A stretch of 64,000 nt of DNA, taken from NCBI GenBank assembly GCA_903923925.1, contig CAIXZF010000032.1, positions 1 through 64,000 of the forward strand, in the 5' to 3' direction. Shown here piece after piece: positions 428 to 16,965 of this stretch; position 1 is the stretch's first letter; every line of letters begins with the position of its first letter. The translations under genes and the position numbers were made by a program. This DNA comes from an uncultured Bacteroidales bacterium. GTDB lineage: Bacteria; Bacteroidota; Bacteroidia; Bacteroidales; CAIXZF01. The notes under the pieces were generated by a model. It ran no database searches. It had not been told where the DNA came from and saw nothing but the letters and a program-made list of their open reading frames with translations.

Positions 428-880
428 CTACAATTCCCCTTCGTCTGCGAAAGAGTAATAGTCATCCTCTGCCATAATGATGTGATCGAGAACAGCTATC
501 TCCAGGTATAAGCCTCCGTTTTTAAGTCTCTGGGTTAGTTTTATGTCGGCTTCGCTTGGGCGTTTGTTGCCACTCGGGTGGTTATGGGCAACAACAATAG
601 AAACTGCATGACATAGCAAAGCCGTCTGAAAGATCAGTTTTGGATCAGCTACAGTGCCAGTTATTCCTCCTGTTGAGATGGTTTTTACACCAATAACTTT
701 TGATGCTCTGTTGAGCAAGATCACCTTGAACGTTTCGCAATAATCCTGATCTTCCCAGGAGTCTTTGAGCAAATTAAAAGAGTCGCGTGAACATGTGAGT
801 TTTACCATGTTAGCGGCTTTTACTTTGTGAGAATAAGATACCTTGATCTCAGCTACATCCTGGTTGAATAGTGTTGTCAT
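428..880 (-). CDS. radC: RadC-like JAB-domain protein
   Basis: A 150-residue protein of the RadC/JAB (MPN+) family. The metal-binding signature is near residues 100-112: H-N-H-P-S-G followed by K-R-P-S-E-A-D, and then VLDHII. It lacks the N-terminal helix-hairpin-helix part of chromosomal RadC, which is usual for the short copies carried on Bacteroidota mobile elements. The molecular role of this family is unproven despite the DNA repair name. It has its own terminator and a 300-base leader that is nearly duplicated in front of the ArdC gene, which suggests common control. The start at 880 is supported by the leader hairpin lying 16 bases upstream, the same spacing as for ArdC. I use the symbol in the family sense only. 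Confidence 0.85.
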   Translation of the reverse strand: MTTLFNQDVAEIKVSYSHKVKAANMVKLTCSRDSFNLLKDSWEDQDYCETFKVILLNRASKVIGVKTISTGGITGTVADPKLIFQTALLCHAVSIVVAHNHPSGNKRPSEADIKLTQRLKNGGLYLEIAVLDHIIMAEDDYYSFADEGEL

Positions 881-1190
881 AGTAAAATGTGTTGCGACGC
901 ATCGTCTTGTTTTTGATGCGCCTGGTTAAACATTAAATTTTTGACGATTTCACCGAGACAGATGATTTGGGTCAAGGGGTTGGGTCATTCCCGATTGTTC
1001 ATCGGGATGAATAACCCGGAACGGTGCGAGTAATTCAAATAATAGAGCACCCTTGACGCAATTCAGAGGTATCCGCCTTCGGGTGCCGGCGGTCGCAGGT
1101 AACTTTGTAAAAAATTGAAGTACCGTGTGTTGGGGCGGTTAGCACCGCTCTCCCCAACCGGCCTGAAGGATTGGGGGTAAACTCTATTTC
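881..1190 (-). repeat. Structured leader, copy A (upstream of radC-like gene)
   Basis: About 300 bases shared with 5413-5715. In minus orientation a hairpin at 896-922 (GGCGCAUC pairing with GAUGCGUC, one G-U pair) precedes the start codon. Further out come a GTTTAACCAGG block, a GTCAAG block, CAAAGTTACC, and paired GCGGT/ACCGC and CCCCAA/TTGGGG segments at 1130-1187. Differences between the copies keep the start-proximal stem paired, which argues for a functional RNA structure. Confidence 0.6.
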
Positions 1191-1331
1191 TGAATTGTTA
1201 TAAGCACAAGAAAATGCACGGCAGGTTTTCCTGACGAGCTTTGAGGTTCGTTTTTATACTACTTAAGATTTATTATCCTCTAATACCAATATAAATTGCT
1301 AATAGTATTTTTTTTTTGCAGTATATGAAAT

Positions 1332-2087
1332 CTAAAAAAATCTAAACCGTTTAATAATTTTGGGATCATCGATAACAAGATATCGTTTCCATTGTCTTAA
1401 ACTTTCAATATCCTTATTAGTTATTTCTGTTCCAGTAAGTTTGAGAATACGTAGATCTTTGAGCTCTTTAATTAAAAGAAAATCACTTATACGATTCCCA
1501 AGAAACTCCCAACAATGAAAAAGGGAAAGTTTCTTAAGCTTAGTTAAATATTGAATTCCCTGTATTGATGAAAAAGGAAGAGTATTAATAAACAAAATTT
1601 CGATATTATTTAAATCTCGTAGAAAATCTAGATTGCTAAATTTACACCAAACCAGAGATAATTCTTTAAGATGAATAAATTTCCTTAGCAATTCTGAATC
1701 TATCTCAAAATCATATAGATTTATACTAGCAATATAGTTGTTTTTTATGTAATTAAGGTTTAGATAAACTTTGCTAGCAGAATATCCAGGGTGAAGTTCC
1801 AAAACTTTTACATTTTTTAAAAGAGTCAAATATTCATGATCTTCCTCCTTTATATGATATATCGTGACAAATTCCAAGTTTGGCAAAAGTTCCAAAATTT
1901 TTAAATCATCCTTACGAGCATCTATTTTCAAATATTTTGCATTTTGGAACTTTTGCCTATTTTTATAAATAGAATCCGCAACTGAGTCAAATTGTCTTGT
2001 AAGGTTGATATATTCTTCAGCGTAAGGGGAATTTGTCTTCTTCCAATATTCCAATACTTTATCTTGTGTATTTTCTAAGATAAACAT
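1332..2087 (-). CDS. Leucine-rich repeat protein
   Basis: A 251-residue protein rich in Leu, Ile and Asn. From about residue 60 onward it has spaced L-x-x-L-x-L patterns (LLPNLEFVTI, LLKNVKVLEL, FIHLKELSLV, LNNIEILFIN, LTKLKKLSLF, LKDLRILKLT) typical of an LRR solenoid. There is no signal peptide, so it is probably cytoplasmic. The gene is much richer in A+T than the flanking mobile-element genes, a sign of separate acquisition. LRR proteins bind partner proteins, but the partner here is unknown. It has no close neighbour that would define an operon. Confidence 0.6.
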   Translation of the reverse strand: MFILENTQDKVLEYWKKTNSPYAEEYINLTRQFDSVADSIYKNRQKFQNAKYLKIDARKDDLKILELLPNLEFVTIYHIKEEDHEYLTLLKNVKVLELHPGYSASKVYLNLNYIKNNYIASINLYDFEIDSELLRKFIHLKELSLVWCKFSNLDFLRDLNNIEILFINTLPFSSIQGIQYLTKLKKLSLFHCWEFLGNRISDFLLIKELKDLRILKLTGTEITNKDIESLRQWKRYLVIDDPKIIKRFRFF

Positions 2088-2200
2088 ACGCTAATATTAT
2101 ATAAATGTGTTATAAATTACCTTAAGAACTATTGTTCAATTATTAATATTGTTAATATAATCAATTGATAATCAAACTAAAACACTACTAAAGTTTTTTT

Positions 2201-2401
2201 CTAGTGGGTATTCCAATATGCAATTTCGGCATCATCTCCTTCGCCATACTCATCAATCCATGGATTAATTCTTCTATCACGCCTTGGGTCACCATCCATA
2301 ATAGGTTCATCGAATTCAAAATCATCTTCAATATTTGTATCAGAATCATCAAACATATTTTCAGATTCAAAACTCAATTCATCATCATTTATATCTTCCA
2401 T
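2201..2401 (-). CDS. Very acidic small protein
   Basis: A 66-residue protein in which well over a third of residues are Asp or Glu, with a few aromatic residues near the C-terminus (NPWIDEYGEG, AEIAYWNTH). I do not recognise a family. The composition recalls DNA-mimic proteins, but many small acidic proteins are not mimics. It follows the HEPN-like gene on the same strand with a 176-base gap and could be its partner. A shorter frame overlapping at 2188-2370 looks like a shadow. Confidence 0.45.
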   Translation of the reverse strand: MEDINDDELSFESENMFDDSDTNIEDDFEFDEPIMDGDPRRDRRINPWIDEYGEGDDAEIAYWNTH

Positions 2402-2577
2402 TGTTTTCGATTTTTTTAAGATATATCAATAAAAATAAGGTAAATAGAATACTTTATTTTCAATGTCAATAATTATTTACCGTTGATCATAAAACATGCC
2501 TCTAAAGAAGTTATTAAGCGTTTTCAAACTTTGCACTGGGCCCGAGACAATGCTTAGAAATGAATGTTTATTTCCTT

Positions 2578-3342
2578 TTAGCTGTTAGTGTTAATTATTT
2601 CTTTGAGTTTTTTAGTCGATGATTCTAAAAACTCTTTTATGATTTTAACAATTTCAATTGTCTCGTTTATTAATTTTTCGATTTCAGCCTCTATTTCATT
2701 ATTTGTCTGTTCCTGCAGTATTTCATCAGTTTCAGAACCAATTCTTGCCATTAAATCTTCCCAAATAACAATACCATTTAATAGCTTAATGTCTGCTTCT
2801 CCTATATGTAATTTTTTATGTCTTTCTTGTTTAAGTTGATCTATTTTATTAATTAATCTTTCAGTTATTGTGCTTATTTCATCATACCCTTCTTGCCTTG
2901 CTTTGTCTTTAAAGATATATGCAGAACTTTTTTCTAATTTGATTTCTAAGCTATAGGTCAAAGTTCCTAATCTTCCTAAAATATCATTGAATGTAGCCAT
3001 TCTGATAAAGTAATTCTCGTAATGATAATTATAGTAGGCTTCTTGAGATTCTAATTTGGGGTAATGTACAAGAATTAGTTTCCGTTCTTTATTTAAAAAT
3101 TGGATTGCCAATTCCAAATCATTTAATACGGTATAAAAATTCGTATAATAGCGAAGTATTTCCTTTAGTTTCAATTCTCGTTCAGTTCCATATTTGCTGT
3201 ATTTTAATTCAGGATTATTTAAGCATTCTTGCATATGTTTAGGTACGAATTGCAGAAGTGCATTAGCTAATTCAAGTTCGAATTGTGTTCCGGTCAAATG
3301 TTCTTTCAATTCCATTTTATTTTGTTTTTTTGAGGCTGACAT
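2578..3342 (-). CDS. HEPN-like protein (possible Cthe_2314 type)
   Basis: A 254-residue, mostly helical, charged protein. Near residues 173-180 it has Q-E-R-H-K-K-L-H, an R-x4-H arrangement like the catalytic motif of HEPN RNases. Upstream are long helices with aromatic residues (RYYTNFYTVLNDLEL, YYNYHYENYFIRM) like those of the Cthe_2314-type HEPN family. The C-terminus is a Glu/Ile-rich predicted coiled coil. HEPN proteins often cut RNA in toxin-antitoxin or abortive infection systems. The family call is from memory of pattern and is not certain. Context (ArdC, RadC, restriction-like operon) fits an accessory defence gene. Confidence 0.5.
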   Translation of the reverse strand: MSASKKQNKMELKEHLTGTQFELELANALLQFVPKHMQECLNNPELKYSKYGTERELKLKEILRYYTNFYTVLNDLELAIQFLNKERKLILVHYPKLESQEAYYNYHYENYFIRMATFNDILGRLGTLTYSLEIKLEKSSAYIFKDKARQEGYDEISTITERLINKIDQLKQERHKKLHIGEADIKLLNGIVIWEDLMARIGSETDEILQEQTNNEIEAEIEKLINETIEIVKIIKEFLESSTKKLKEIINTNS

Positions 3343-3525
3343 TTGCGCATTTTTATTTCTGCGTTTTTATTAAACATGCTCATTAACTGATTTTTCCGCT
3401 TAAAGGCCACTAATTTTGATCTATAAATCATATCTATCAAAAAGCCAATCAAATGTACATTACAAATATAAAAAACCTTTCGATGAAATCCATAGCCATA
3501 AGTAGTTAATTTTCAAAAGTTGGCA

Positions 3526-3550
3526 ATAAAAAACCCCTTTTTCAGGGGTT
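3526..3550 (-). terminator. Intrinsic terminator of the 118-residue gene
   Basis: Stem AACCCCT/AGGGGTT with a 5-base loop followed in minus orientation by a T-rich run, just after the stop codon at 3568. Confidence 0.8.
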
Positions 3551-3567
3551 CTTTAATTGGAGGGGTA

Positions 3568-3924
3568 TTATTTTGCCGTTGTTGCCATTGAGATGATCTC
3601 AGTGTTCTGGTCTTTTGCAATTCTTTCGGCTAAGGACTTTGCCTTTACGTAATACCAAACTTTGTAGGCATATTTGGGTTCAGCATCCAGGTCGGTGCCA
3701 AGAGAAACTGTCCAGTATGGTCTTTCAACTCCGTCTTTCGAATTCTCTCCGCAATCGCTGAAGGGGCCTTCGAAGAAAACAACCATCTTCTGGTCAGTTA
3801 TTTCTTTTTTGGTTTCAACTACCTGGGTAGCCTTTTCAGGAGCTGACGGATGGGAAGTTTCAACCTTTTTTGAAGTTCTTGGTTTACGATCCTTTTTTGA
3901 GGTGCTTGTTGAAGTTGTTTCCAT
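3568..3924 (-). CDS. Small mobile-element protein with basic N-terminal tail
   Basis: A 118-residue protein. Residues 1-45 are a low-complexity tail rich in Thr, Ser, Lys and Pro. Residues 46-118 form a compact domain containing MVVFFEGPF, a Cys, YWTVSLG, PKYAYKVWYYVKAKSLAERIA and a short C-terminal strand. The same domain without the tail begins at the left edge (1-127). I do not recognise a characterised family. The gene has its own terminator and a leader related to that of its paralog, so the two are probably co-regulated. Confidence 0.65.
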   Translation of the reverse strand: METTSTSTSKKDRKPRTSKKVETSHPSAPEKATQVVETKKEITDQKMVVFFEGPFSDCGENSKDGVERPYWTVSLGTDLDAEPKYAYKVWYYVKAKSLAERIAKDQNTEIISMATTAK

Positions 3925-3959
3925 GGTTTTAAGTTTTAAGGGTTAAAATTCAATTTTTA

Positions 3960-4075
3960 TGTTTTTATCAATTCCCGAAAGTCATTAGCTTGTCCAGTTT
4001 TTTGCAGAAACTTTAGCCCAACTTGACAAGTGATGAAATGGCTGAAAGGGATCTTTACATAAAAAAAGAATGGCC
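3960..4075. promoter_or_regulatory. Conserved leader motif, copy 2
   Basis: Contains AGCCCAACTTGAC, then GGCTGAAAGGGATCTTTAC about 12 bases on, matching the leader at 180-260 in order and spacing. Read on the plus strand it has a TTGAC and a CTTTA element about 25 bases apart, pointing away from the 118-residue gene. Confidence 0.4.
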
Positions 4076-4452
4076 CTTACAACTGTTACCGGAAACCTGC
4101 AAACCCGGAAAAGGATTGTACACATTGAAATTCAGGTGCACTGGATCTTGAGGTAGTCCGGGTTAAGTGGTTGAATCAGAAATAACCCTATTGTTTTCTT
4201 GAGGCACATTCAGTTATGCAGGATTCTCTGTTGAAAGAATACCTGGACCTAATTCTCTTACCCTCAATGCTGAATACAATTTTGTCATGATAAGTATTAT
4301 GAAAAGCATCATTGAAAGAATTGCACCAGAAAAAATCAGAAAACCATAGTTTAAAGCAGGCTAATATTCAGGAGAAGTTCACTGAAAAAGCTCAGCTGTG
4401 GCCAATCTTTTGAAAATTTCTCGTTTCCTTCATTTATTCTTTGCCTTACGAC
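4076..4452. other. Gap without a recognisable gene
   Basis: I find no convincing gene in this interval between the leader at 3960-4075 and the ArdC terminator. Only short frames without start-site or family support are present. It may be decayed mobile-element DNA. Confidence 0.5.
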
Positions 4453-4486
4453 CAAAAAAATGCCCGGCAGGGATTTCCTGCCGGGC
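4453..4486 (-). terminator. Intrinsic terminator of the ArdC gene
   Basis: Perfect 10-bp stem GCCCGGCAGG/CCTGCCGGGC with a 5-base loop and, in minus orientation, a run of seven T. It lies 18 bases after the ArdC stop codon. Confidence 0.9.
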
Positions 4487-4503
4487 TTCCGTATCAAAAT
4501 TAT

Positions 4504-5412
4504 TCAACACTGGTCAACCAATTCATTTTCCTGTTGGCTTGAATTACCGGATTCTTCCTGCTCTGCATAGGTGTGAAGTGGTCGTCCAAGGATGAAATTC
4601 ACTGCCTTTGAAGCCTGGGATGCAGCCCAGACCACCCAGGAGGTATTGTTCTCCAGAACTGTGAGCCAGGAGGCAATGTAGGAAGAAGTAAATGCACGTT
4701 CATAATCATTTCCGGTGATCTTATTCAGGAAACTTGCTCCGAGTTCAGCAATGAGTTCTTCCTTTGAATAAGCATGCTGGTCGGCTGAATAACCCAGCAG
4801 TTCACGTTTGAGGCGTAGTTCGTGGCCTGTTGAATGGATGAGCTCATGGTAAAGGCTGGCATAAAAAGCCTGGGAGTTCTTAAATTGAACTTTATGCGGC
4901 ATTTTTACAGTATCCAGGGCAGGGGAGTAGCAGGGCGAATAGGATGTTTTATACTCAATAACCGGTTTCTGAGGCATATTCTCAATAAGCGTTTCGGCGG
5001 TAAGGTTATCCGGGTATTGGGAATAGAATTGGCTCATTTTCTGAATCTTTTCCATTCCCTTCTGGTCGAAAGTACATTGGTCTGTGTTGAAAACATAGTA
5101 GTACTTGAGCATCCAGAAGTTTTTCTTGTTGCCATCGGCATCTACATCTGAAAGTGTTTTAGTAAAAACAACGAAGGAACCTTTTTCACCCTTGTTAACC
5201 ACACCACCATTTTGGCGAATTTGGTTAAATGATGCCCAAACCGGTGATTTAAAATGTGAAAAAGCCAGCAGCAGCTGGTTAATACCCTGGTAATGATGTC
5301 CGTTTAAGGAGATCGGTTCCGGGTTATTCCAGCATTTTTCCCAGGATCCTGCTGATTTCATTCCTTCGATTACCTGTTTTGTAATCTGTTCATAAATTTC
5401 GTTTGTCTTCAT
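4504..5412 (-). CDS. ardC: ArdC-type antirestriction protein
   Basis: About 302 residues with the two-part layout of ArdC/DUF1738 proteins. The N-terminal ssDNA-binding domain (residues about 1-120) has W-x-x-C-W-N-N-P, an NGHHYQGIN segment and GEKGSFVVF. The C-terminal zincin-like domain carries H-E-L-I-H-S-T-G-H near residue 190, followed by YSKEELIAELGASFL, which holds the third ligand region. ArdC proteins ride on conjugative plasmids and integrative elements and protect incoming DNA from restriction. I place the start at 5412 (MKTNEI): the leader hairpin is 18 bases upstream, matching the radC-like gene, whereas a start at 5436 would lie inside that hairpin. It has its own terminator. 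Confidence 0.88.
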   Translation of the reverse strand: MKTNEIYEQITKQVIEGMKSAGSWEKCWNNPEPISLNGHHYQGINQLLLAFSHFKSPVWASFNQIRQNGGVVNKGEKGSFVVFTKTLSDVDADGNKKNFWMLKYYYVFNTDQCTFDQKGMEKIQKMSQFYSQYPDNLTAETLIENMPQKPVIEYKTSYSPCYSPALDTVKMPHKVQFKNSQAFYASLYHELIHSTGHELRLKRELLGYSADQHAYSKEELIAELGASFLNKITGNDYERAFTSSYIASWLTVLENNTSWVVWAASQASKAVNFILGRPLHTYAEQEESGNSSQQENELVDQC

Positions 5413-5715
5413 AACAAAAAATGTGTTGTGGTGCATTTGAGATTTGAAAATGCACCTGGTTAAACAAAAATTTTGAACAAAGTCAACCGAGGAAACTGAT
5501 TTGTGTCAGGTGTTTAGGTCCATTGTGCAGCAATTGACAAAACCCGAAGGGGGCAGGTAATTCATAGATCCTTGCGCCCACTTGACACAATTCAGAAGCT
5601 GAACCTTAGGGAAGCTGGTTTACGCAGGTACCTTTGTGAGAAAATTGAAGTAACGTGCGCCGGGGCGGTTAGCACCACTCTCCCCAACCGGACTGGAGGA
5701 TTGGGGGTGAAAATA
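5413..5715 (-). repeat. Structured leader, copy B (upstream of ArdC)
   Basis: Related to 881-1190 over its whole length. In minus orientation a perfect 9-bp hairpin (GGUGCAUUU with AAAUGCACC) lies at 5430-5456. Relative to copy A it has C-G to U-A changes on both sides of the stem. The distal CGGTTAGCACC and CCCCAACCGG segments are nearly identical in the two copies. Confidence 0.6.
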
Positions 5716-5725
5716 TATTCTTAAC

Positions 5726-6067
5726 TTAACCAAGTAAAAAGACTAAATCCTTTCGTATGGTGACATTGATTTTTTTTACATACTTTAAAATCAAGCCTCT
5801 TTTTGGTAATTTAGCCTTAGTAAATTCATATTGAATATAATTATACAGCAAGCAATCATCTATTCTAACTGGACTCTTTAAGAATCTTTCAAGATCAAAA
5901 AAATCATTTATAATAGTAATAAATTTCCTGTCATTAAGTGATTTATACTTAGACAGTTTAGCAATAAGTGATTCTTCTGTTTCCTTATCTAGATAAGGGC
6001 AAATTGCCCATGTAATAATGTATTTTGGAGAAAGCTTCATTGGAGTAATTTTAAAGATTTGTAGCAA
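5726..6067 (-). CDS. Unknown protein, last gene of the restriction-like operon
   Basis: Up to 113 residues; translation could start at 6067 (overlapping the EVE gene by 17 bases) or at 6040 (MKLSPK, 104 residues). It is Lys/Ile/Leu-rich, with WAICPYLDKETEESLIAKLS and a basic C-terminal half (KAKLPKRGLILKYVKK). I recognise no domain. The overlap with the upstream gene points to translational coupling, so it is probably a component or accessory of the same system. The adjoining ArdC leader begins right after its stop. Confidence 0.6.
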   Translation of the reverse strand: MLQIFKITPMKLSPKYIITWAICPYLDKETEESLIAKLSKYKSLNDRKFITIINDFFDLERFLKSPVRIDDCLLYNYIQYEFTKAKLPKRGLILKYVKKINVTIRKDLVFLLG

Positions 6068-6464
6068 GTCTTTTGATTATCTCAAATTCAGCTATCGTTA
6101 ATGGCATCACTGATAATCTTGGTTGTCTAATCAACCCTATTTCTGAAAGAGATGGAGTGGATTTTATTACGGCAAGACTTAACGGTTTATCGAAAGAAGC
6201 AACTGGTTCGAAAGTTACACTTACCCATCTTGGATTGCTCGTTGTTGGATCCTGGTGCGATTCTTGAACTACTTTCATTTTGCCCATTATTGATCTATCT
6301 TCCTGGCTATGATAAAATAATACCTCGTCATCAATTTTCATTTTCTGAAGATTATTAGCAGATTGAGGATTCCGTATGGAGTATATCTCAAATTTGCCGT
6401 TTCTTAAACAATCTTTCCATGAATATCTAAATGGAGCGAATTTTACAAGCCAGTAACTCATCAT
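6051..6464 (-). CDS. EVE-domain protein
   Basis: A 137-residue single-domain protein of the EVE (PUA-like) family. Typical features in order are YWLVKFAPF at the N-terminus, an R-N-P-Q-S-A-N-N-L segment, D-D-E-V-L-F-Y-H-S, IMGKMKVVQE, a DPT...PRWVSV segment, and a C-terminal helix ITIAEFEIIKRL preceded by LIRQPRLSVMP. EVE domains have an aromatic pocket that can bind modified bases such as m6A or 5-methylcytosine derivatives, and they recur beside restriction-modification genes. Here the start codon directly abuts the methyltransferase stop codon, so the protein is very likely made with it and may read the modification or detect modified foreign DNA. The base it binds cannot be read from sequence. 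Confidence 0.85.
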   Translation of the reverse strand: MMSYWLVKFAPFRYSWKDCLRNGKFEIYSIRNPQSANNLQKMKIDDEVLFYHSQEDRSIMGKMKVVQESHQDPTTSNPRWVSVTFEPVASFDKPLSLAVIKSTPSLSEIGLIRQPRLSVMPLTIAEFEIIKRLATNL

Positions 6465-9400
6465 CTATTCATTTTTAAGACCATAAAGAACTAAATAATC
6501 ATCTGATTTCCCAAGGTTGCGCAAATTTTCTTTTTGAGCATTTGATAGCTTGGGATACCTTCGAGCATACCAGTTTTCCACTTCCATAATATCATCAGCA
6601 TTCAGCCCATATGCTTCATACACAAGTCTGTCAATTTCAATCTGTTCATTACTAGCATAATCATACCGGGGATTCACTTTCTGCTTCTTAATAATTTTTT
6701 TAACTTGATCTCGGATTTGTTCATTGGAGTCAACAATAGAATAAATAAGTTCATCATTATCATCAGTTTGTGAATTTACTGTATGGTTAATAAATGTAAT
6801 GAACTGATATCTCCATAATTTCGAAGAAAGGATTCCCAAATTATGCTCTCTTGTGAAAATTGAAATATAAATATCATTACAACCTGAATCAAAAATAGTA
6901 TCTGTGGCTAAACGGTAAGTTGGACTATATGCACCAACTCTTGAACAATCAATAGCTTTCGTAAAATAACTATCAGGACTTCTAATAATGGCACACATTG
7001 TTGTTTCATAACTTGGCTTAATGGCTTTATTTTCATTATTTTCTCTAATACGCTGTGCAATCGTATAAGTCTTCATCCTTTTTACAGCCCATTCGCTCCA
7101 ATCAATATAATAATTTGTTTGAACAAAATAATTCGGCATCCAACCGCCATCAGCGTCACTTTCTCCTCCTTTATCATACGGTACAATATACCTGCCCCCA
7201 AAATACCGTTCACTTTTAGAATTATTTTTAGAAATTCCCTTTCCAATTACCTCCAATCTCAAATCATTATTTCCTCTAATCTGATTTAAGTCATTCTCAT
7301 TTAATACAAAATCAATGAAATCATTAATGTCACTATAGTTTCCTCGAGCTTCTGGTTTCTGGAAAAAATAGGAATGATTATCGCCTGTTGCTAATCCTTG
7401 TTTGATATTAGCAATCTCCCCAAATCTAACTAAATCAATTTTTTTACCATTTATACTAATAACCCTTACTTGAACTCGTTTGCTTGCTAATATTCTGAAT
7501 TCAATTTCGGGCTTATTCCCTTCATCATTCCCTTCATTCATAATTAAATATAATTTGGGATCTGCAACGAAAAAGGGTAAACACCTATTGATTTTTATAA
7601 GGCTTTGCTGGTAATAATAGATCGCATAAGATTCAGTGCTTATGTTATCTGGAATGACTTGATTTACTGAAAAACCAACTCCTTCTGTTTCACGTAGTAA
7701 TTTATTAAAGCGATCATAATCATTATGAATGCTCACATTTGTCATATCGACCATTTGACAAATATGATTTTCATTAAATGTTGCGACAGGTCTATTATTT
7801 TCATCTAATGGAAAAACATTTCGCTCACAAATAATTATAGCCGTATTTACTGTCGCTCCAAAAGTGTCTTGATGTACACGTATCATTTTATGAATATAGT
7901 TGTTCATCATTTGTTTGCGGAGGGGAAGATGAGACCTAATCGTCATAAAGGTATCACTTACAATATAGGTTAAAACTCCGCCGTGTTTGAGAGGTGTTTC
8001 TTTATTCCCTGAGGTAAGAAACCTTGCAATAAAGGCACCATATGGATCTTTACTTTCAATACCTAAAGAATTACGAACTTCATCACTTATTTTTACACCT
8101 CCATAGGGAGGATTACCTATAACACAGTCGAATCCAATTCCTTTTAATTCAGGATAAAAGAAATCCATATTAAAGAATGGAGCAGCAATTGTGGCATGGG
8201 TGAACCAATGTCGTATTAACTCTTTATTTTGGCCTTTAATTCGTTTACCCGTTACCTGAAAACTGAAGGAGGGGAAAGCTAAATCCAAAACATCAACAAT
8301 TTCTTCGGTGACATGTAGTCGTTCTTCAATGGATAAATCTGGTTGATAATACTTTAATCGAGCAGATTCTAATTTAATAATGGCAGGAGAAGAGAACATG
8401 TCGGGATTAATATTTTTTAAACTATCAGCACATATAATCTTGGTTTCGATGTTTGGCATAGGAGTTATGCCATATTTAACATTCTGGTCTATTAAAAGAG
8501 AAATAAAAAATCTAAGCTTAGTAATTTGGACGGCAAGAGGTTGAATGTCAATACCATAGATACTGTCTCGAATTATCCCAAGTTTCCGGCTATAATCATC
8601 AACATGTGACCTAAGGATTTTTTGAAATTCAGGTCTATAATTCGAATCGACTGCTGATAGTTTGAGTTTGATCCAACGAGAATTATCAGGGTCAACAAAT
8701 TTTAAAATATCAACCAATCTATGAAGCATACCCATTGGAAAAGCACCTGATCCACAAGCAGGATCAAGCATTCTAAATCTGTCAATTGCACCCACAATCG
8801 ATTCACAGAATTCTTCGTCAACGACATCCAGTCGTTCATTGTAAATAAGATTCTTTAAAGCTGACAGTTGTTTTTTATGAATACTATTTCGCAGGTACAG
8901 GAATAGACTCTCATTTACCATTTCCCGGATAACTTTTCTTGGAGTATAATAACTACCTGTGAGTTTTCTAATGCTTTTTAATGTGCTTTCTTCAAGATTT
9001 GGATCTAATTCCGCTAATAGATTTTCAAATACAAGACCTAATAGTTCAGGATCTAACGCGATATCTTCTTCATAAGGTGTGTTTTCCTCTAATGTAAATT
9101 TGTACGATTTAAAAATACCATTTAACCCTTTATGCTCTACTCCTTCTTCAAATTCTTCAAATAATGATGGTTTTGAATCCTTTTTTACGGACTTAATTTT
9201 CTCTTTTATACCATAAAACAGGTAATTGGGAATTTGAAGAACAGTATCCTCAATACTTTCTTTAGCATTATCTTCTTCTAATTTATCAAAAATGCCTCCA
9301 TTCAAATAAGGTATCTTGATAAGCCATTCAATATCAAATTCTTTATGGATGTATTTGACCCACTTGAAATCCTTTATGGATTTCTTTTCTTTCTTATTCA

Positions 9401-10331
9401 ATGCATTAAAGAAAATGTTTTGCAGGATGCCTCTATAATAGCTGTTTGATTTAAGGAAATCTTTTTCGTTAGTATCATGAGTTAGTGGATAGTAGTTGCC
9501 TTCCCAATCTTTTAATTCTAACAACTCAGGTCGAACTAATCCTTTTTCTTTCACGAACCAACAAAACATCGTTCGAGCAAGTAACCTAACAAGAAAATTC
9601 TTAGTATTTTCTTTTTCCGGAATATAATCAGGTCGGATAGGGAGTTTGATATGTGTTGAAGCATAATAAAACCACTGTTGTAGATCAGAATAGAAATGAT
9701 CATTTAGTGCCTGGACAGTAAATACTGATTGCCAATATGTATATAATTTTTTGAATGAATTAACTTTCACTCTATCAATCATCAATCCTTGAAGAATTCT
9801 TATATGGGCTGCATGCGGATGTATTGTTGATATATCCTTCAGAAGAGTTACTTTTCCTGTCTTCTCACCATCACGCCATGGTTGTTTATAAGATGAACGC
9901 TCGCTATGGGCAAATGAAATATACTGTTCGTACTTAAAAACAACAATAACTGGCAAAAATTGGAATGCACGATTAAATGATCTCGATATTTCAGCTAGAT
10001 AACCTCTTGTTGGCATCAATCCTTTTGCTCTGGTTTTAAGGGTGATCCCGAAAACCACAACTCCATCATAGTCAGCTTTAATTTTTCTAACAGATTCAAT
10101 ATCGGTTAATGATTGCCTATTACTAAAAATGGCATCATTTATTATACCTAACAGATAGACATCTCCAATCAATTCATGCGCGGGATTATTTGGTTTGTAA
10201 CAATCACCTAAAATTACACTGGGACTGGCTGGCTCATCGGCAATATAGTTCACAGGAACATTAAGTTCCTTAAAGAAACTTTTAAGGGCATCAATAAACG
10301 AAATATTGGCAAAATTGGAGATTGAAATCAT
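6465..10331 (-). CDS. Large Eco57I-type N6-adenine DNA methyltransferase
   Basis: A 1288-residue protein. The SAM-binding motif I is L-D-P-A-C-G-S-G-A-F near residue 520 and catalytic motif IV is N-P-P-Y-G near residue 740, typical of gamma-class N6-adenine methyltransferases of the Eco57I/PglX/DrmMI group. Residues 1-450 form a large N-terminal region with no motif I can assign; no obvious PD-(D/E)xK core stood out. The region after about 900 probably holds target recognition (TaqI-like specificity), and the C-terminus repeats helical segments ending in RYPKLSNAQKENL. It lies one base after the helicase stop and abuts the EVE gene, so the genes form one operon. Expected role: mark host DNA for self-recognition, with the helicase/nuclease as effector. 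Confidence 0.88.
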   Translation of the reverse strand: MISISNFANISFIDALKSFFKELNVPVNYIADEPASPSVILGDCYKPNNPAHELIGDVYLLGIINDAIFSNRQSLTDIESVRKIKADYDGVVVFGITLKTRAKGLMPTRGYLAEISRSFNRAFQFLPVIVVFKYEQYISFAHSERSSYKQPWRDGEKTGKVTLLKDISTIHPHAAHIRILQGLMIDRVKVNSFKKLYTYWQSVFTVQALNDHFYSDLQQWFYYASTHIKLPIRPDYIPEKENTKNFLVRLLARTMFCWFVKEKGLVRPELLELKDWEGNYYPLTHDTNEKDFLKSNSYYRGILQNIFFNALNKKEKKSIKDFKWVKYIHKEFDIEWLIKIPYLNGGIFDKLEEDNAKESIEDTVLQIPNYLFYGIKEKIKSVKKDSKPSLFEEFEEGVEHKGLNGIFKSYKFTLEENTPYEEDIALDPELLGLVFENLLAELDPNLEESTLKSIRKLTGSYYTPRKVIREMVNESLFLYLRNSIHKKQLSALKNLIYNERLDVVDEEFCESIVGAIDRFRMLDPACGSGAFPMGMLHRLVDILKFVDPDNSRWIKLKLSAVDSNYRPEFQKILRSHVDDYSRKLGIIRDSIYGIDIQPLAVQITKLRFFISLLIDQNVKYGITPMPNIETKIICADSLKNINPDMFSSPAIIKLESARLKYYQPDLSIEERLHVTEEIVDVLDLAFPSFSFQVTGKRIKGQNKELIRHWFTHATIAAPFFNMDFFYPELKGIGFDCVIGNPPYGGVKISDEVRNSLGIESKDPYGAFIARFLTSGNKETPLKHGGVLTYIVSDTFMTIRSHLPLRKQMMNNYIHKMIRVHQDTFGATVNTAIIICERNVFPLDENNRPVATFNENHICQMVDMTNVSIHNDYDRFNKLLRETEGVGFSVNQVIPDNISTESYAIYYYQQSLIKINRCLPFFVADPKLYLIMNEGNDEGNKPEIEFRILASKRVQVRVISINGKKIDLVRFGEIANIKQGLATGDNHSYFFQKPEARGNYSDINDFIDFVLNENDLNQIRGNNDLRLEVIGKGISKNNSKSERYFGGRYIVPYDKGGESDADGGWMPNYFVQTNYYIDWSEWAVKRMKTYTIAQRIRENNENKAIKPSYETTMCAIIRSPDSYFTKAIDCSRVGAYSPTYRLATDTIFDSGCNDIYISIFTREHNLGILSSKLWRYQFITFINHTVNSQTDDNDELIYSIVDSNEQIRDQVKKIIKKQKVNPRYDYASNEQIEIDRLVYEAYGLNADDIMEVENWYARRYPKLSNAQKENLRNLGKSDDYLVLYGLKNE

Positions 10332-10332
10332 A

Positions 10333-13300
10333 TTAACTAATTATAAACCATGTAATTAAATCAAAATTTTCTTTTGAGTATTTTTCTGCCGGTCTACCCT
10401 CAGCCTTTATTTGCTCGATAGTCGCCTTACTGCCCTTTTTAAGTTTATTTATCAGATCGATGGCAACAGGCCCCATTTTCTGCTTAATTGTTCCATCAGG
10501 AAGAATTTCTTCTTCAATCACCTGTCTTGTGAGCCAGGAATTAAGCGAATCAGCAATTTTCTTGATCCATTCTGATTCTCCGTGATCAATTTCAGTCCGC
10601 ACATACCTGTTTTTATTCTTATGTTTGGCTAGTGCATCAAGAACCTCTTTTTGATTTAGAAAAACGGAAACCCCTTGGTAATTAATGTAAACCAGATCAA
10701 ATCCCTTGTAACTAAAAGTCTTAGTTTTAGATGGCCTGGTCGGATAGCCAAGCAATGCAATTATCCCTTCTTGTGGGCATATGTCCTTTTCTGCCTTAAA
10801 TCCTGTATAAATTGCTTTTGGTAAGGACCTATAATAATTTTCTGAACGTTTCAACTCTTCCAGAAGTTCTTGACGGTACGTTTCAAGGGAGAGGTCATCA
10901 AATCCGAGCCCCTGCTCGCTTACTTCAATATCCTCCCAGGTTGTTTGCATTTGTTCAAGCATCCTCGCTTTTTGCTTGATTTCCAATGATTCATCCTCAG
11001 CCATCTGTCGAAAAGATTCAGAAAACTCTAGTTGTACTTCAGAACCTGCAAGTTTCATAGCGGCCATTTTATGTTCTACACGACCTTGCAAATTCAAATA
11101 AGTATTGATGTTATCTGATGGCCAGAAGTTATATCCAAATATTATTTTGTTTGGTGAACCAAGCCTATCGATACGGCCCATACGCTGAATAACTCTGACC
11201 GGATTCCAATGGATATCATAGTTAATTACCATATCGCAATCCTGCAAGTTCTGTCCTTCACTTAGAACGTCTGTTGCAATTAAAATATCAACAGGGTTCA
11301 ATAATTTGTTATGTGTTGATTTATCTTTATCGGCTACCCATATTTCCCACTCCTCAAATTGTGAGTATGGTGACAACGCTTCTGAACTGGGTTCAAATGC
11401 CCATTCCTTTTCTTTAAAAAGTTTAGTAAATGGGGCAAACTGTTCCAGAATGTCCTCAAAATTCTTTGTTTCACCTTCTTTATTCCAAATTCTTGAGGCA
11501 TCTCCACTAACAACAGCAAGTTTATCAAATCCACGTGCTTTAAGCTGATCAAATAGATAATAGGCCGTATCCTTGTAAACTGTAAAAATTATAACTTTTT
11601 GATTGCCATTATTTTCTCCCTTTTTCCGTTTCTCTTTAATACTTTCGATCAACGTCTGTAGCTTGTCGTCATCACTTTTATGACTATTAGGCTTTTTAAC
11701 CTCCTTTTCTAGTTTCTTCTCAAACTGACTCAGGTTGCTTTTGAGAAGTTGTAATGCACTAATATCTTCCTTTAGGTCTTTTTTAAACCTTTCAATTCTA
11801 CCAGATTTATCGATATCAATTAGCCGGATCTTCCGTTTTTTACCTAATGTAAAATCGCCAACATCATCGGGCATGTCATCATCATCAAAAGGATCCATTT
11901 CATCTACATCAATTCCGGTATCCAATTTACTTTCCTGATACTGTTTAATTCTATCCAGCGCATTTTGATGATGTAAATGAATTTTATCAACTGTCTTACT
12001 GAACGAATACCAAGATGATTCAAGACGTTTTACCATCAAAATATAAATCATCTTAACCAAAAAATGGTCTCGCTGCTTTTCATCATGAATCTTTTCTATA
12101 TTTTCTTCTTGTTCAATATAAAATGATGGTTGGTAACCAGATAGCATTGGTGGGAAATGGTCGAACAATTCTTCAAAGCTTTCAAAATTCCCAATAAGCT
12201 TAGGAGTCACAAATTTATTGACAGGTTTTGCTTTCATTGGAAATTCAAGGTTGTTTTGATGGCCTTCAATCATTTTTCTGGTACGAGCAACAGTCAATGA
12301 ATCAGTCAACTTTGTGAAATTCGGAGGAAGCTCTTTTATGAAATCACCTATTTTAGGATTCGGTTCCGTCGTCCAGCGATTGAAAGCTTGTTGCGCAGAG
12401 CGGAATGTGGAATCAAGGTTTTTAATGTCTAATGATTCCTCAAAACCTTGAGAATCTCCTGCTACAATCAACTTAAACTGGTTCCTGATGTCCATCAAAG
12501 AATTATTAATAGGAGTTGCTGAAAGCATTAGTACTTTGAAATCTTCATTTTTTGAAAGAATTTCATCAACTAGATATCTATATCGTTTTGATTTATCATT
12601 TCTTAAATGATGACTTTCGTCGATTACAAATAACTTGGGCTTTTCATTAATGAATAATTTATCAGCCCTATCATGACATTTAAGCATCAAATCCAGGTTT
12701 AGATCTGTATGAAATCTTATAAAATACTCAAACTGATCTTTTTCAAATCGTGAATTGTGATGTTTTAAAAAGTTTCGCCAATTGCTCTGTAATTTTTTTG
12801 GGCAAACGAGAATAATTTCACGATTTTGTTGCTGATAAAACTTCATTACTCCAAGAGCAGTCCATGTTTTACCAAGTCCTACTGCATCAGCAAGTATTGC
12901 TCCATTATATTTCTGAAGCATCTTAATCAGGCTAAGTACTCCTTTTTGTTGAAATTCGTACAAGGCATTGTAAATCACTGAATTTTCTAAGCGGCCTATA
13001 TGGCGGTTAAATTCAGGATTATCTTTTTCCATAAGAAGTTCTTCTCCGAAGAGTTCAAATAGAACTTTGAAATACAATTCCTTAGGTGTATACTCAACAA
13101 ATATTTTTTTGATCTCATCAATCAGGAATTGCTTGAAGGGTTTTCTTTGGAGTTTGCCATCTTCATCAAAATAACTTTTATAATCATGAGCTTGGGGTCT
13201 AATCCAGAGTTGTTCAAACCATGCACTTAATTCATTATACTGTGGATCGGCTCCAAAATTCGCAATATTAAGTTCGACATTATTCGTCTTTTTTAGACCT

Positions 13301-13722
13301 GTACCTGCCTCTGTAAGATTTGAACTACCTGAGATATAGTAGTCTTTTTGAGGGTCCTTTTCTTTATTTTTGAATAAATAGACTTTAGCGTGACAGAAAT
13401 TAGGCTCAAGGGTTTTTGCTTGGACTTTATCCAATTCAAGAAAGGCCACAGCTTCTTTGGCTACCTTACTAAGTCTTAGTGCTGCTTCAATGTTGATATT
13501 TTCATTGAGCAAATCTAAAGCTCTGTCCTTGTCAGTATCAAAACTCACAATGTCTCCAAGTACGATCCTATACTTATTAATAATCTCTTTAGTGGCATTT
13601 GAAAGAAAGGCAAGAGCTCCAACCGTAAAGTATCCAGTAACTAATGACATGGTACCGGTTTTTGTATAGTAGGTTATCCATTCATGAACCTTAAGATTCT
13701 CATTTTCATTATCTAAAATCAT
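10333..13722 (-). CDS. PLD-nuclease / SNF2-helicase fusion
   Basis: A 1129-residue protein. Residues 1-180 form a PLD-type (HKD) nuclease domain with H-A-K-V-Y-L-F at 111 and G-S-S-N-L-T-E-A-G at about 132, the arrangement seen in HKD domains fused to Snf2 helicases. The helicase core follows: Walker A D-A-V-G-L-G-K-T at about 279-286, D-E-S-H-H at 369, SATPINN, a long insert with acidic stretches (DEMDPFDDDD) around 600, then the second RecA domain with LIATDVLSEGQNLQ, NYDIHWNP and Q-R-M-G-R-I-D-R-L-G. It is the first gene of the operon. It probably translocates on DNA and cleaves unmodified or foreign DNA through the PLD domain. DISARM, BREX, Hma and Mokosh systems share parts of this set but not this exact fusion and partner list. 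Confidence 0.88.
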   Translation of the reverse strand: MILDNENENLKVHEWITYYTKTGTMSLVTGYFTVGALAFLSNATKEIINKYRIVLGDIVSFDTDKDRALDLLNENINIEAALRLSKVAKEAVAFLELDKVQAKTLEPNFCHAKVYLFKNKEKDPQKDYYISGSSNLTEAGTGLKKTNNVELNIANFGADPQYNELSAWFEQLWIRPQAHDYKSYFDEDGKLQRKPFKQFLIDEIKKIFVEYTPKELYFKVLFELFGEELLMEKDNPEFNRHIGRLENSVIYNALYEFQQKGVLSLIKMLQKYNGAILADAVGLGKTWTALGVMKFYQQQNREIILVCPKKLQSNWRNFLKHHNSRFEKDQFEYFIRFHTDLNLDLMLKCHDRADKLFINEKPKLFVIDESHHLRNDKSKRYRYLVDEILSKNEDFKVLMLSATPINNSLMDIRNQFKLIVAGDSQGFEESLDIKNLDSTFRSAQQAFNRWTTEPNPKIGDFIKELPPNFTKLTDSLTVARTRKMIEGHQNNLEFPMKAKPVNKFVTPKLIGNFESFEELFDHFPPMLSGYQPSFYIEQEENIEKIHDEKQRDHFLVKMIYILMVKRLESSWYSFSKTVDKIHLHHQNALDRIKQYQESKLDTGIDVDEMDPFDDDDMPDDVGDFTLGKKRKIRLIDIDKSGRIERFKKDLKEDISALQLLKSNLSQFEKKLEKEVKKPNSHKSDDDKLQTLIESIKEKRKKGENNGNQKVIIFTVYKDTAYYLFDQLKARGFDKLAVVSGDASRIWNKEGETKNFEDILEQFAPFTKLFKEKEWAFEPSSEALSPYSQFEEWEIWVADKDKSTHNKLLNPVDILIATDVLSEGQNLQDCDMVINYDIHWNPVRVIQRMGRIDRLGSPNKIIFGYNFWPSDNINTYLNLQGRVEHKMAAMKLAGSEVQLEFSESFRQMAEDESLEIKQKARMLEQMQTTWEDIEVSEQGLGFDDLSLETYRQELLEELKRSENYYRSLPKAIYTGFKAEKDICPQEGIIALLGYPTRPSKTKTFSYKGFDLVYINYQGVSVFLNQKEVLDALAKHKNKNRYVRTEIDHGESEWIKKIADSLNSWLTRQVIEEEILPDGTIKQKMGPVAIDLINKLKKGSKATIEQIKAEGRPAEKYSKENFDLITWFIIS

Positions 13723-13934: not shown

Positions 13935-14141
13935 TTAAGCTTTCTCCGTCTTGGCTTTATCCCAGCCCCTTAGCCAGGATTCTGACATGAGCTCATCCAG
14001 TGAAGAAGGGAAGAGATCAAAGGCATCCAGAAAACATTGATCATTTTGTGGGTCTCTGGGATAATTTCTTTCCCCTGCGCGTTGACCTAAGGCAATAAAA
14101 GACGTTTCTACTGATGAAGATAATGCTGTTGAATTTGTCAT
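13935..14141 (-). CDS. Small mobile-element protein of unknown function
   Basis: A 68-residue protein starting MTNSTALSSS and containing GQRAGERNYPRDPQNDQ and a C-terminal DELMSESWLRGWDKA segment. No family is recognised. I prefer the ATG at 14141 over upstream starts (to 14222), because the longer version runs into two direct copies of GGTGTGCCAG that look like leader sequence. It has its own terminator and a leader containing the conserved TTGAC and AGGTAACTTTG blocks, so it belongs to the same co-regulated set as the RadC-like, ArdC and 118-residue genes. Confidence 0.6.
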   Translation of the reverse strand: MTNSTALSSSVETSFIALGQRAGERNYPRDPQNDQCFLDAFDLFPSSLDELMSESWLRGWDKAKTEKA

Positions 14142-14239
14142 TGTGATTGGCTCCTGCCCTGGAGACTTGTGTTGGTTTCTGGCACACCGGATTAAAAATG
14201 AAATTTTTGCTTCCTGGCACACCGCGAAAAATAAATAAT

Positions 14240-14365
14240 GTCAGGGGTGTTGGTCAGTCCGATGAAGTCGGAGTGAATACACTGAAAGCGACAATGCCAT
14301 CAGGCGGTCGCCCTTGACAGTTTTAAGCCCCAGCGAATTTTTCATAGGTAACTTTGCTGAAATTT
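14240..14365. promoter_or_regulatory. Conserved leader motif, copy 5
   Basis: Contains CCCTTGAC at about 14312 and AGGTAACTTTG at about 14345, the same two blocks found at 1051-1106 and 5580-5637. The rest of the leader has diverged. Confidence 0.45.
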
Positions 14366-14399
14366 CGAGTTTAAATAGTGTGGGTAGGCTTTCTTTTTT

Positions 14400-14705: not shown

Positions 14706-16388
14706 CTATCTTACTTTGGGATCGCCCTGAAGCACGGTCTTGCCCTTAAGGATCTGGAAGAACTTCTTCCTGCAAATCCAGTATTTAAAGGCATCCGAAG
14801 GGTTGGTGGATTCTAAGGGCAAACGGGGAACGGGTAGTTTCTCGGACTTCTTAACCTTTACGATCCTGCCTTTGGACTTATCCATGGGTGCAAGTTCCAG
14901 TGAACTCTTGAGTTCCTTGCATTCGAAGGCATCAATGGCAATTGCCGGCAGGTCGGGGTTGTGGCCTGAGAGCATTTCATTCACCAGTTTGTATTCCTGC
15001 CAGTGTTCTATATTGCGCTGGTTCAGGCTCATAAGCATCACAATCCAACCGGTGCGCTTACCATCACGGATTTCGATAGCGCGTTTAAGCTGGCTGGCAA
15101 AGTCTTTCTTTGCGGCAGCATATTGATTGGCTGAACGGTCAAAATAAAGTTCCAGGACCTTATGCTGATGCCCCTGAAAGAAATCCAGAAACTTTGCAGC
15201 CAGCTGCTCAATGAAGTCAGGCACCAGGGTATACATAAACTTCAGGGCACGCATGGTCTTGCCCTGGTCCTGGCCAATGAGTAAACTCATCATGTTGCCT
15301 GCATCAAAGCCTGCCTCCAAAGGCTTGTCATGCCGGCAATAGCGTAATCCTTTGGAGCTTTGGGTAATGGGTTCCCTTAAGCCGAAACGGTCATAGAATT
15401 CATAATTGTATCCGTCGTAATAAAAGTTGCGTTCACCCAGGCTAAAATAAAACCGCTGGTCCTTTTGTAAACTTCCCGGTAACGATAATACCGATGTGCG
15501 AAACTCTTCCATTCCCAGTGTTTCCAAAAGGTTTTCAAAGTAGTCAAGGGTCAGCACATCACAATTGGCAAAGGAACTTACAATATAAAAGAATGTGGAA
15601 GCATGCCTGATCCTGATCAGGCGCTGTTTCCACTTGTAAAGGTTACGTTTAAGCTTGTCAATTTCCCCGGGCTTAAGAGGTGGATCCTGGTGCAGGGCGT
15701 TCACCAGTTCCAGTTGTATTTCATTGACAATAAAGGCAGTCTGGATAATCTTTACAATGGTATCCTTATCCATTTTCTTCTCCATCTCCAGAATCCAACC
15801 GTCATCACCCAGAGCAGGGTTTGGCATGTCGGTACAAAAGGTCTGCCCCATGAAATAATGCGAGCGGCTCAGCAGGGTAGCATCACCACGCAGGGTAGGG
15901 AAGAGGCGGTTGAGTTTGTCTTTCTTGAGGTATTTGGCCTCATCCCCAAACTGGTGTGCTACAGAAATGCCAGCATTGATGCTGGGCCTGTCCAGGCTTT
16001 TGAGAAAGAATTTACAACCGTTGAACGTGGAAATCGTATGCTTGTAATAAGTGCCAGGCACATAAGGCCGCTTCCAGATGGAGGGCGGTTCTTTGTCCAC
16101 AATATAATGGTAGTCCACATAAAATTTCTTCCGCTCCCAGCCAATAAAGATCTGTGGAAGGATATTGGTCAGAAGGTTTACATAGGTATCGGAAACAAAG
16201 GCAAAAGAAGCCCTGGGCATGTCATAGATCACAGCCATGCTTCGTTCAGCAAGGATTTCAGTGGATTTGGCCACACCACGCCCACCCACCAGGTAAAGGT
16301 TCTGCGGACTGATCAAGTCTATCAGGATCTTGATCCAGGTGGCATACTGGATTTCTGCCTGTTGTTCACTAAGGTTTATCCGTGCCAT
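14706..16388 (-). CDS. terL: Phage large terminase (packaging ATPase/nuclease)
   Basis: About 560 residues from MARINLSEQQ. The ATPase half has Walker A G-G-R-G-V-A-K-S-T near residue 36 and a Walker B-like F-G-D-E-A-K about 130 residues later. The nuclease half begins at A-G-F-D-A-G-N (acidic residue first) and continues through AKFLDFFQGH, LYFDRSANQY and IAIDAFECKEL. TerL pumps DNA into the procapsid and cuts it. The start at 16388 overlaps the preceding gene by 20 bases, typical of a phage late operon. It is the last gene of the visible morphogenesis run: a portal gene would normally follow but is absent. A deleted relative lies at 33050-33219. Confidence 0.85.
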   Translation of the reverse strand: MARINLSEQQAEIQYATWIKILIDLISPQNLYLVGGRGVAKSTEILAERSMAVIYDMPRASFAFVSDTYVNLLTNILPQIFIGWERKKFYVDYHYIVDKEPPSIWKRPYVPGTYYKHTISTFNGCKFFLKSLDRPSINAGISVAHQFGDEAKYLKKDKLNRLFPTLRGDATLLSRSHYFMGQTFCTDMPNPALGDDGWILEMEKKMDKDTIVKIIQTAFIVNEIQLELVNALHQDPPLKPGEIDKLKRNLYKWKQRLIRIRHASTFFYIVSSFANCDVLTLDYFENLLETLGMEEFRTSVLSLPGSLQKDQRFYFSLGERNFYYDGYNYEFYDRFGLREPITQSSKGLRYCRHDKPLEAGFDAGNMMSLLIGQDQGKTMRALKFMYTLVPDFIEQLAAKFLDFFQGHQHKVLELYFDRSANQYAAAKKDFASQLKRAIEIRDGKRTGWIVMLMSLNQRNIEHWQEYKLVNEMLSGHNPDLPAIAIDAFECKELKSSLELAPMDKSKGRIVKVKKSEKLPVPRLPLESTNPSDAFKYWICRKKFFQILKGKTVLQGDPKVR

Positions 16389-16965
16389 CTTCCATGAATT
16401 CAACGTCGATAATGCCGGCATCCTGCCGCAGTTTGTGCTTGTCGTGGGCTGTTACATCTAATTTATCAATAAAACCGGCAAGTTCCGAACGGCTCACCTT
16501 GGGGATCCCCAGCTTTGTCGGATCCATCTGGATGATGATCACCCGGCGGTCGAGCAATTCATCGGGCAGTGCAGGGGGCTCCTCCCGGAACAGGCCCCGC
16601 ATTTCAGCGGCTGTCTGCAAACAGCGGCGGTAATTCTCAATCTCATTGCGCTCCCATGCCAGGGCAGCAGCATATTCAAGCTTCTCGGCATAGACATTGC
16701 GCCAGGCTTCCTTCTTTACCTGGTTATCAGAATAAAAGAAGTTTAAGGCATCCACGAACAAACGCCCAGCATGCTGCCTGGTTACACCGTAAACCTTAAC
16801 AATGTGGTTAATGATAAAGGCCTTGGTCTTGTATTTTGAATAAAACGAGCGGATCAATTCCAGCTGGTCGATATACTCCACAAGGTGTGCAGGGATCTTC
16901 TCCCGGCCATGTTCAATGTAAGCCTGGATCAGTTCGTACTTTTCTTTGGTTTTCTCAAGATCCAT
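16369..16965 (-). CDS. Phage protein, possible small terminase partner
   Basis: About 198 residues starting MDLEKTKEKYEL. The middle region has AFIINHIVKVYGVTRQHAGRLFVDAL, which reads as a helix-turn-helix, and the C-terminal half has RRVIIIQMDPTKLGIP. It lies directly before terL and overlaps both neighbours, so a small-terminase or packaging DNA-recognition role is likely. A longer frame up to 17142 exists but runs through the upstream gene and looks like out-of-frame translation. Confidence 0.6.
   Translation of the reverse strand: MDLEKTKEKYELIQAYIEHGREKIPAHLVEYIDQLELIRSFYSKYKTKAFIINHIVKVYGVTRQHAGRLFVDALNFFYSDNQVKKEAWRNVYAEKLEYAAALAWERNEIENYRRCLQTAAEMRGLFREEPPALPDELLDRRVIIIQMDPTKLGIPKVSRSELAGFIDKLDVTAHDKHKLRQDAGIIDVEFMEDGTDKP

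Follow-up and report, generated by a model that had tools for sequence, protein, structure and literature searches.

Antirestriction proteins are needed fast and briefly when a phage or another mobile element enters a cell, and, to our knowledge, the timing of their expression is known in few cases. In plasmid F, the Frpo region, similar in length to the leaders described here, lies in front of antirestriction genes. In phage Mu, the antirestriction gene mom is controlled at the level of translation via a start-region hairpin that is opened by the small zinc-finger protein Com (PMC6483171). Two RNA groups have been described close to genes of this kind, namely, STAXI, whose repeated pseudoknot-type units lie in the vicinity of antirestriction and DNA-handling genes in mobile elements, and the radC RNA motif (RF01754), which precedes radC-type genes and is a candidate cis-regulatory RNA (both in PMC2864571).

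The leaders considered here are a previously uncatalogued, strongly covarying RNA that precedes antirestriction and related genes of prophage-like elements. No Rfam family, STAXI and RF01754 included, matches them in the window (the whole analysed stretch of 64,000 nucleotides from an uncultured Bacteroidales bacterium) at gathering thresholds, in positions 800-6000 with E values of up to 5 allowed, or in eight related loci with a limit of 0.5. The genes and hairpins that are relevant first are the following:

428-880, minus strand: radC-like JAB-domain gene, 150 aa (PF04002, E 2e-38)
896-922, minus strand: start-proximal hairpin of the radC leader, GGCGCAUC-loop-GAUGCGUC
4504-5412, minus strand: ardC antirestriction gene (PF08401 and PF18818)
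5430-5456, minus strand: start-proximal hairpin of the ardC leader, GGUGCAUUU-loop-AAAUGCACC
21796-22698, minus strand: head maturation protease, S49 (phrog_53, E 7e-39)

As judged from its counterparts in C64 and C210, ardC starts at 5412 (MKTNEIY) and not at the listed 5436, in agreement with the start used in the preliminary description of this DNA. Since the window encodes, besides the head maturation protease, further phage families, the element is considered prophage-like; at another locus with such a leader (L113), the neighbours are a tape measure protein and an endolysin. As a separate observation, a 571-aa ORF at 14706-16421 (minus strand), which carries GGRGVAKST near its N terminus and has no Pfam or PHROG match, resembles, by eye, a terminase large subunit. 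The stretch between the marked genes at 6051-13722 (minus strand), with an EVE-domain ORF, an Eco57I-type methylase (1288 aa) and an SNF2/PLD-type helicase (1129 aa), looks like a defence cargo island.

The preliminary description had pointed to a covarying hairpin just before each of the two genes. Both hairpins are indeed present on the minus strand upstream of the radC and ardC starts, and, between them, two pairs change from C-G to U-A and one from G-U to G-C, exactly as claimed. Two hairpins by themselves would be weak evidence, because stems of at least 8 pairs (loop 4-12) arise by chance in 7.5% of random 45-mers of the window and stems of at least 9 pairs in 3.4%; it is this frequency that speaks for the view that we are dealing with a DNA operator palindrome or with chance hairpins devoid of any RNA role. 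Over seven homologous copies, the eight-pair stem is paired in 96.4% of the cells, as compared to 84.5 +/- 2.7 after shuffling (0 of 500 shuffles reached the observed value) and far less for slid structures, and 4 of the 8 pairs show two-sided changes. The covariation score is 0.452; shuffling lowers it to 0.191, and slid structures reach 0.155 at most. Hence, the pairing and the covariation, on whose persistence in further copies the preliminary description had staked its proposal, are both retained. As the seven copies derive from just two genomes and two gene lineages, the independent events among them are few, and, with so small and related a set, the covariation would by itself be suggestive rather than final. 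In a diverged copy, the stem is almost wholly new (GAGcAAUUA/UAAUUcCUC). Such change of the arms with the pairing kept is contrary to the behaviour of a protein-binding DNA palindrome, so that the palindrome or chance explanation appears scarcely credible. The claim that selection acts on RNA structure is further borne out by the covarying copies in other genomes, described below, and by the excess of G-U over A-C mismatches on the sense strand. As expected of a cis-regulatory structured RNA leader, pairing is maintained via compensatory changes, in front of homologous and non-homologous genes, on the sense strand.

Each of the two hairpins is the 3' end of a conserved leader of about 300 nt, a feature that had been overlooked in the preliminary description:

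881-1188, minus strand: conserved radC leader, ~300 nt (bounds from homology)
5413-5719, minus strand: conserved ardC leader, ~300 nt (from homology)

The regions upstream of radC and ardC are homologous over ~280 bases, from the CCCCCAATCC hairpin to the start codon, and are 73% identical. In the same genome, further copies precede another radC (C62) and another ardC (C64), a diverged copy precedes a broken ardC (C62), and truncated copies are found in C72 and C37. The related genome KTt_bin-0590 (G040) has the same ardC / 118-aa ORF / radC layout as the window, with both leaders present. Elsewhere in the order, diverged leaders precede genes for ArdC homologs (G100, G284, G237, G196 and others), but are absent, by eye, at most of the remoter ardC homologs (L023, L026, L028-L030, L034-L039, L041, L043, L046); queries with ArdC and RadC against genome and viral contigs yielded only two further loci. 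Two side observations concern the 118-aa gene. First, C72 (locus L015) contains three separate 3' fragments of this gene (4854-5012, 6342-6491 and 9355-9492), one of them joined to a truncated leader, a hint that cargo has recombined more than once at these sequences. Second, the leaders at 3925-4060 and 129-260 of the window (minus strand) share another conserved pattern, AAGTTGGGCT[AG]AAGTT..., which precedes two related-looking ORFs, namely, the 118-aa ORF at 3568-3924 and one that runs off the window start (ATG at ~128).

The upstream part of the leader, hereafter module 1, has a core that is common to the window and to other genomes and consists of a mini-hairpin (CCC-GUU-GGG, CC-UUCG-GG or CCG-UUC-CGG), UUCA, a stem designated P3, and UGACC. 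The sequence of P3 varies freely, yet 25 of the 26 copies form the stem; its pairs comprise 149 Watson-Crick and 4 G-U, and not a single A-C. RNAalifold on a MAFFT alignment of all module-1 sequences did not recover the fold, since bulges shift the arms; therefore, P3 was scored arm by arm. A covariance model of the core, R2, was built from eight unbulged copies of other genomes only, with the window and its relative left out (96.6% paired, 7 of 11 pairs changed on both sides). This model finds both window leaders:

968-1027, minus strand: module-1 core of the radC leader, with mini-hairpin, UUCA, P3 and UGACC (R2 29.3 bits, E 5e-6)
5502-5554, minus strand: module-1 core of the ardC leader (R2 24.0 bits, E 1.9e-4)

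Since R2 stems from other genomes, the homology of the window leaders was predicted rather than fitted; R2 also matches the leaders in C64 and C62 and both copies in G040.

In other genomes, the start-proximal part of the leader is usually not a simple hairpin but a 50-nt unit (module 2) of two hairpins with complementary loops, which ends 7-9 nt before the ATG and contains the invariant sequences GCCAG..GCC and AGGGCA. Copies of this unit were gathered first by a pattern, with the loops fixed and helix 2 unconstrained apart from one pyrimidine, and then with a model, R1, to a total of 45 distinct copies. In helix 2 (R-u-CCNN with NNGG-Y), 99.1% of 225 cells are paired, 64 cells are changed on both sides, and 4 of the 5 pairs vary on both sides. 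The covariation score is 0.788, as compared to 0.242 for shuffled and at most 0.144 for slid structures, and the few mismatches are of the G-U (7) rather than the A-C (1) type. When column pairs were scanned without supervision and with no prior structure, the top four pairs were the four variable pairs of helix 2. Kinship among the copies inflates such counts, but both the slid controls and the variety of pair types speak against kinship as the cause of the covariation.

In hairpin 1, at one pair, GGC/GCC is replaced by GGU/ACC three times and by GGG/CCC once, and a locus outside that set (L141) shows GGU/ACC again, as a fifth two-sided change. The loop of hairpin 1 contains GCC and that of hairpin 2 GGC, which are complementary in every copy and invariant (with one U-G), so that a contact between the loops, that is, a kissing complex, can be proposed as a possibility on the basis of the sequences. 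Because GCC and GGC do not vary, covariation says nothing on this contact. We also considered an H-type pseudoknot, with the second GCC pairing with the loop; in three copies, however, this GCC is replaced by ACC and the first GCC is unchanged, and it is with the upstream GGC that the second GCC covaries. For both these reasons, hairpin 1 combined with a loop-loop contact is preferred.

The window itself contains a third, related leader at ~14142-14375, which had been missed in the preliminary description:

13935-14141, minus strand: 68-aa ORF, MTNSTALSSS..., with module 2 directly before its ATG at 14141
14142-14191, minus strand: module 2, two hairpins with complementary loops, possibly a kissing complex (R1 53.4 bits, E 3.7e-11)
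14237-14291, minus strand: module-1 core of the third leader, TTCA-CTCCGA..TCGGA-CTGACC, a weak assignment made by eye (R2 15.2 bits, E 0.08)

The R1 match was obtained with a model built from other genomes only, and R1 has no further match elsewhere in the same genome. Thus, one and the same element carries two forms, the simple hairpin at radC and ardC and the two-hairpin unit at the 68-aa ORF. These forms differ in sequence; judging from their position, they would be functionally equivalent. Such an exchange is not unique to the window, since, in another genome (G199), the leader of a full-length radC likewise consists of module 1 together with a simple GC hairpin.

Module 2 precedes ardC, radC and small element genes, including genes inside operons that lack the upstream part of the leader. 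In one locus (L110), there are eight copies of module 2 as compared to two module-1 cores, and operon-internal copies are also found in L062, L063, L067 and L111. Of the 36 instances that the pattern retrieved, 33 have 12-13 nt between GGGCA and the ATG and two have 15-16 nt; the remaining one lacks an ATG start. Taken together, the recurrence of module 2 at operon-internal genes, at a fixed distance from the ATG and without module 1, makes control of translation the most likely role, and the repetition of its copies suggests a single shared factor. Bacteroidetes lack Shine-Dalgarno sequences, and initiation of translation in these bacteria depends on mRNA structure (PMC3155529, PMC6847099), so that a conserved structure near the start should matter.

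We therefore lean, with some reserve, towards the view that the leaders are cis-acting structured RNAs in the mRNAs of prophage-like cargo genes, with module 2 as a putative translational operator. Module 1, a long imperfect hairpin with the mini-hairpin and P3, stands at operon starts and would probably act once per transcript, in stability, antitermination or sensing. Module 2, represented by the two-hairpin unit in most copies or by the simple hairpin at radC and ardC of the window, stands by the start codon. In the folded state, its hairpin 2 would extend up to 7-9 nt from the AUG and hinder the initiating ribosome; a factor made by the element (or by the host) would bind or open the module and, in this way, set the translation of all marked genes jointly. 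Against the operator reading, the simple hairpins of the window end 15 nt (radC) and 17 nt (ardC) before the ATG, that is, at the edge of the ribosome footprint, with the AUG outside the stem. The preliminary description had suggested a shared translational or antitermination switch. The structure is indeed common to several element genes, and translational control appears to be the best reading, whereas antitermination is neither supported nor contradicted.

The antitermination idea is consistent with phage biology. If it were generalized, module 1, and perhaps module 2, would be a put-like antiterminator or an attenuator of the cargo operons, in line with the location of the long, branched and conserved module 1 at operon starts and with the phage genes in the neighbourhood. 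Such a transcriptional leader does not predict operon-internal copies of module 2 at a fixed distance from the ATG without module 1, and no T-run follows the hairpins of the window on their 3' side, so that we regard it as unlikely. Stable structures near the 5' end are common stabilizers of mRNA, and the copies in front of the individual genes could be sites of processing; the hairpins might, accordingly, shield the transcript or serve as a nuclease site. The invariant loops and the fixed distance to the ATG exceed the needs of a stabilizer, which renders this explanation distinctly unlikely. A ligand-sensing riboswitch might likewise have a compact, conserved fold, with invariant loops, beside a start codon, but no metabolite is common to antirestriction, RadC-like and small uncharacterized genes, and several copies occur within one operon; we deem a riboswitch very unlikely.

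One more explanation, in which the leader would act as DNA, is linked to a conserved box at the 5' foot of module 1:

1100-1107, minus strand: conserved box CAAAGTTA, module 1 5' foot (equivalents at 5629-5636 and 14349-14356)

This box, CAAAG[GT]TA, is present in all full copies of the window type and in 14 of 20 leaders elsewhere, where it lies at -157 to -202, at a near-constant distance. The -7 promoter element of Bacteroidetes is TAnnTTTG, and the reverse complement of CAAAG[GT]TA fits it, on the antisense strand; a search of the sense strand upstream of module 1 gave a TAnnTTTG promoter in just 1 of 20 leaders. The box could be an antisense promoter, a single-stranded-DNA promoter or an RNA motif. 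In the second case, the template strand would fold upon entry and drive early antirestriction transcription, as in Frpo. The length of ~300 nt, the location in front of ardC, and the fit of the antisense strand of the CAAAGNTA box to the -7 element at the foot of the long hairpin are compatible with such a promoter. Still, the G-U rather than A-C mismatches indicate sense RNA, the neighbours are genes of double-stranded-DNA phages (tape measure, endolysin, head protease), no relaxase occurs among the subset of genes scanned with Pfam or PHROGs, and a conserved -33 element was looked for and not found. In addition, several copies have C(UUCG)G loops, a feature that was used as an argument for RNA in the case of STAXI (PMC2864571). 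Altogether, a Frpo-like promoter appears most improbable.

The leader family is confined, within the genomes sampled, to ~5% of those of the same order, with none outside it. The module-2 pattern matches 20 of 393 genomes of the order (a handful of them chance-like by sequence) versus one control match, and 8 of 395 genomes of the phylum, all chance-like and similar in number to the control matches. R2 matches 15 of 295 genomes of the order, that of the window included, and none of the 197 others in the phylum sample; R1 matches none of the 197 others in the class sample. The genome samples overlap between the pattern, R1 and R2 searches. Leader DNA has no match among plasmid and phage records, apart from two chance-level 35-bp matches to Synechococcus phages, and a search of viral contigs with the exact patterns was negative; the carriers are, therefore, rare in these collections or are not free phages.

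One could go further and envisage a translational regulon of a phage, in which the loop-joined two-hairpin unit stands before each antirestriction or early gene and one factor of the element reads all of them. This extension is tentative and, in our opinion, rather doubtful; if true, these genes would be translated together upon entry or induction. An RNA unit shared by such genes would offer a handle on the timing of antirestriction in Bacteroidales-like bacteria. Module 2 is also a signature that is absent from Rfam, and a small gene that follows it becomes an anti-defence candidate. In this respect, a family of tiny proteins (43-77 aa, SIYF.GYA...DPEKL.FE) is encoded after module 2 or module 1 in several genomes (L119 at 5976-6146, L120-L122, L112 at 7394, and L143); they are candidates for a regulator or an anti-defence gene.

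Among the known systems, Frpo differs from the leaders described here in that the mismatch bias and the phage context of the latter argue for RNA. RF01754 shares the position upstream of radC-type genes, but belongs to Proteobacteria. STAXI is alike in that repeated units lie near antirestriction genes of mobile elements; it is, however, enterobacterial, and its pseudoknot is repeated two to three times in tandem, whereas here one module per gene is followed by the ATG. The com-mom pair of Mu can serve as a working model of such control. A CxxC zinc-ribbon ORF of 71-73 aa is found among the marked genes of several elements (L062, L063, L067, L068 and L110), although the search made revealed none in the window, and it is only a guess, by analogy with Com, that its product might be the factor that acts on module 2. 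In Mu, the hairpin of mom contains the start codon, whereas the hairpins here end 7-17 nt before the ATG; the RNA fold is different, and the single target of the Mu system contrasts with the many genes that are marked in the elements described here.
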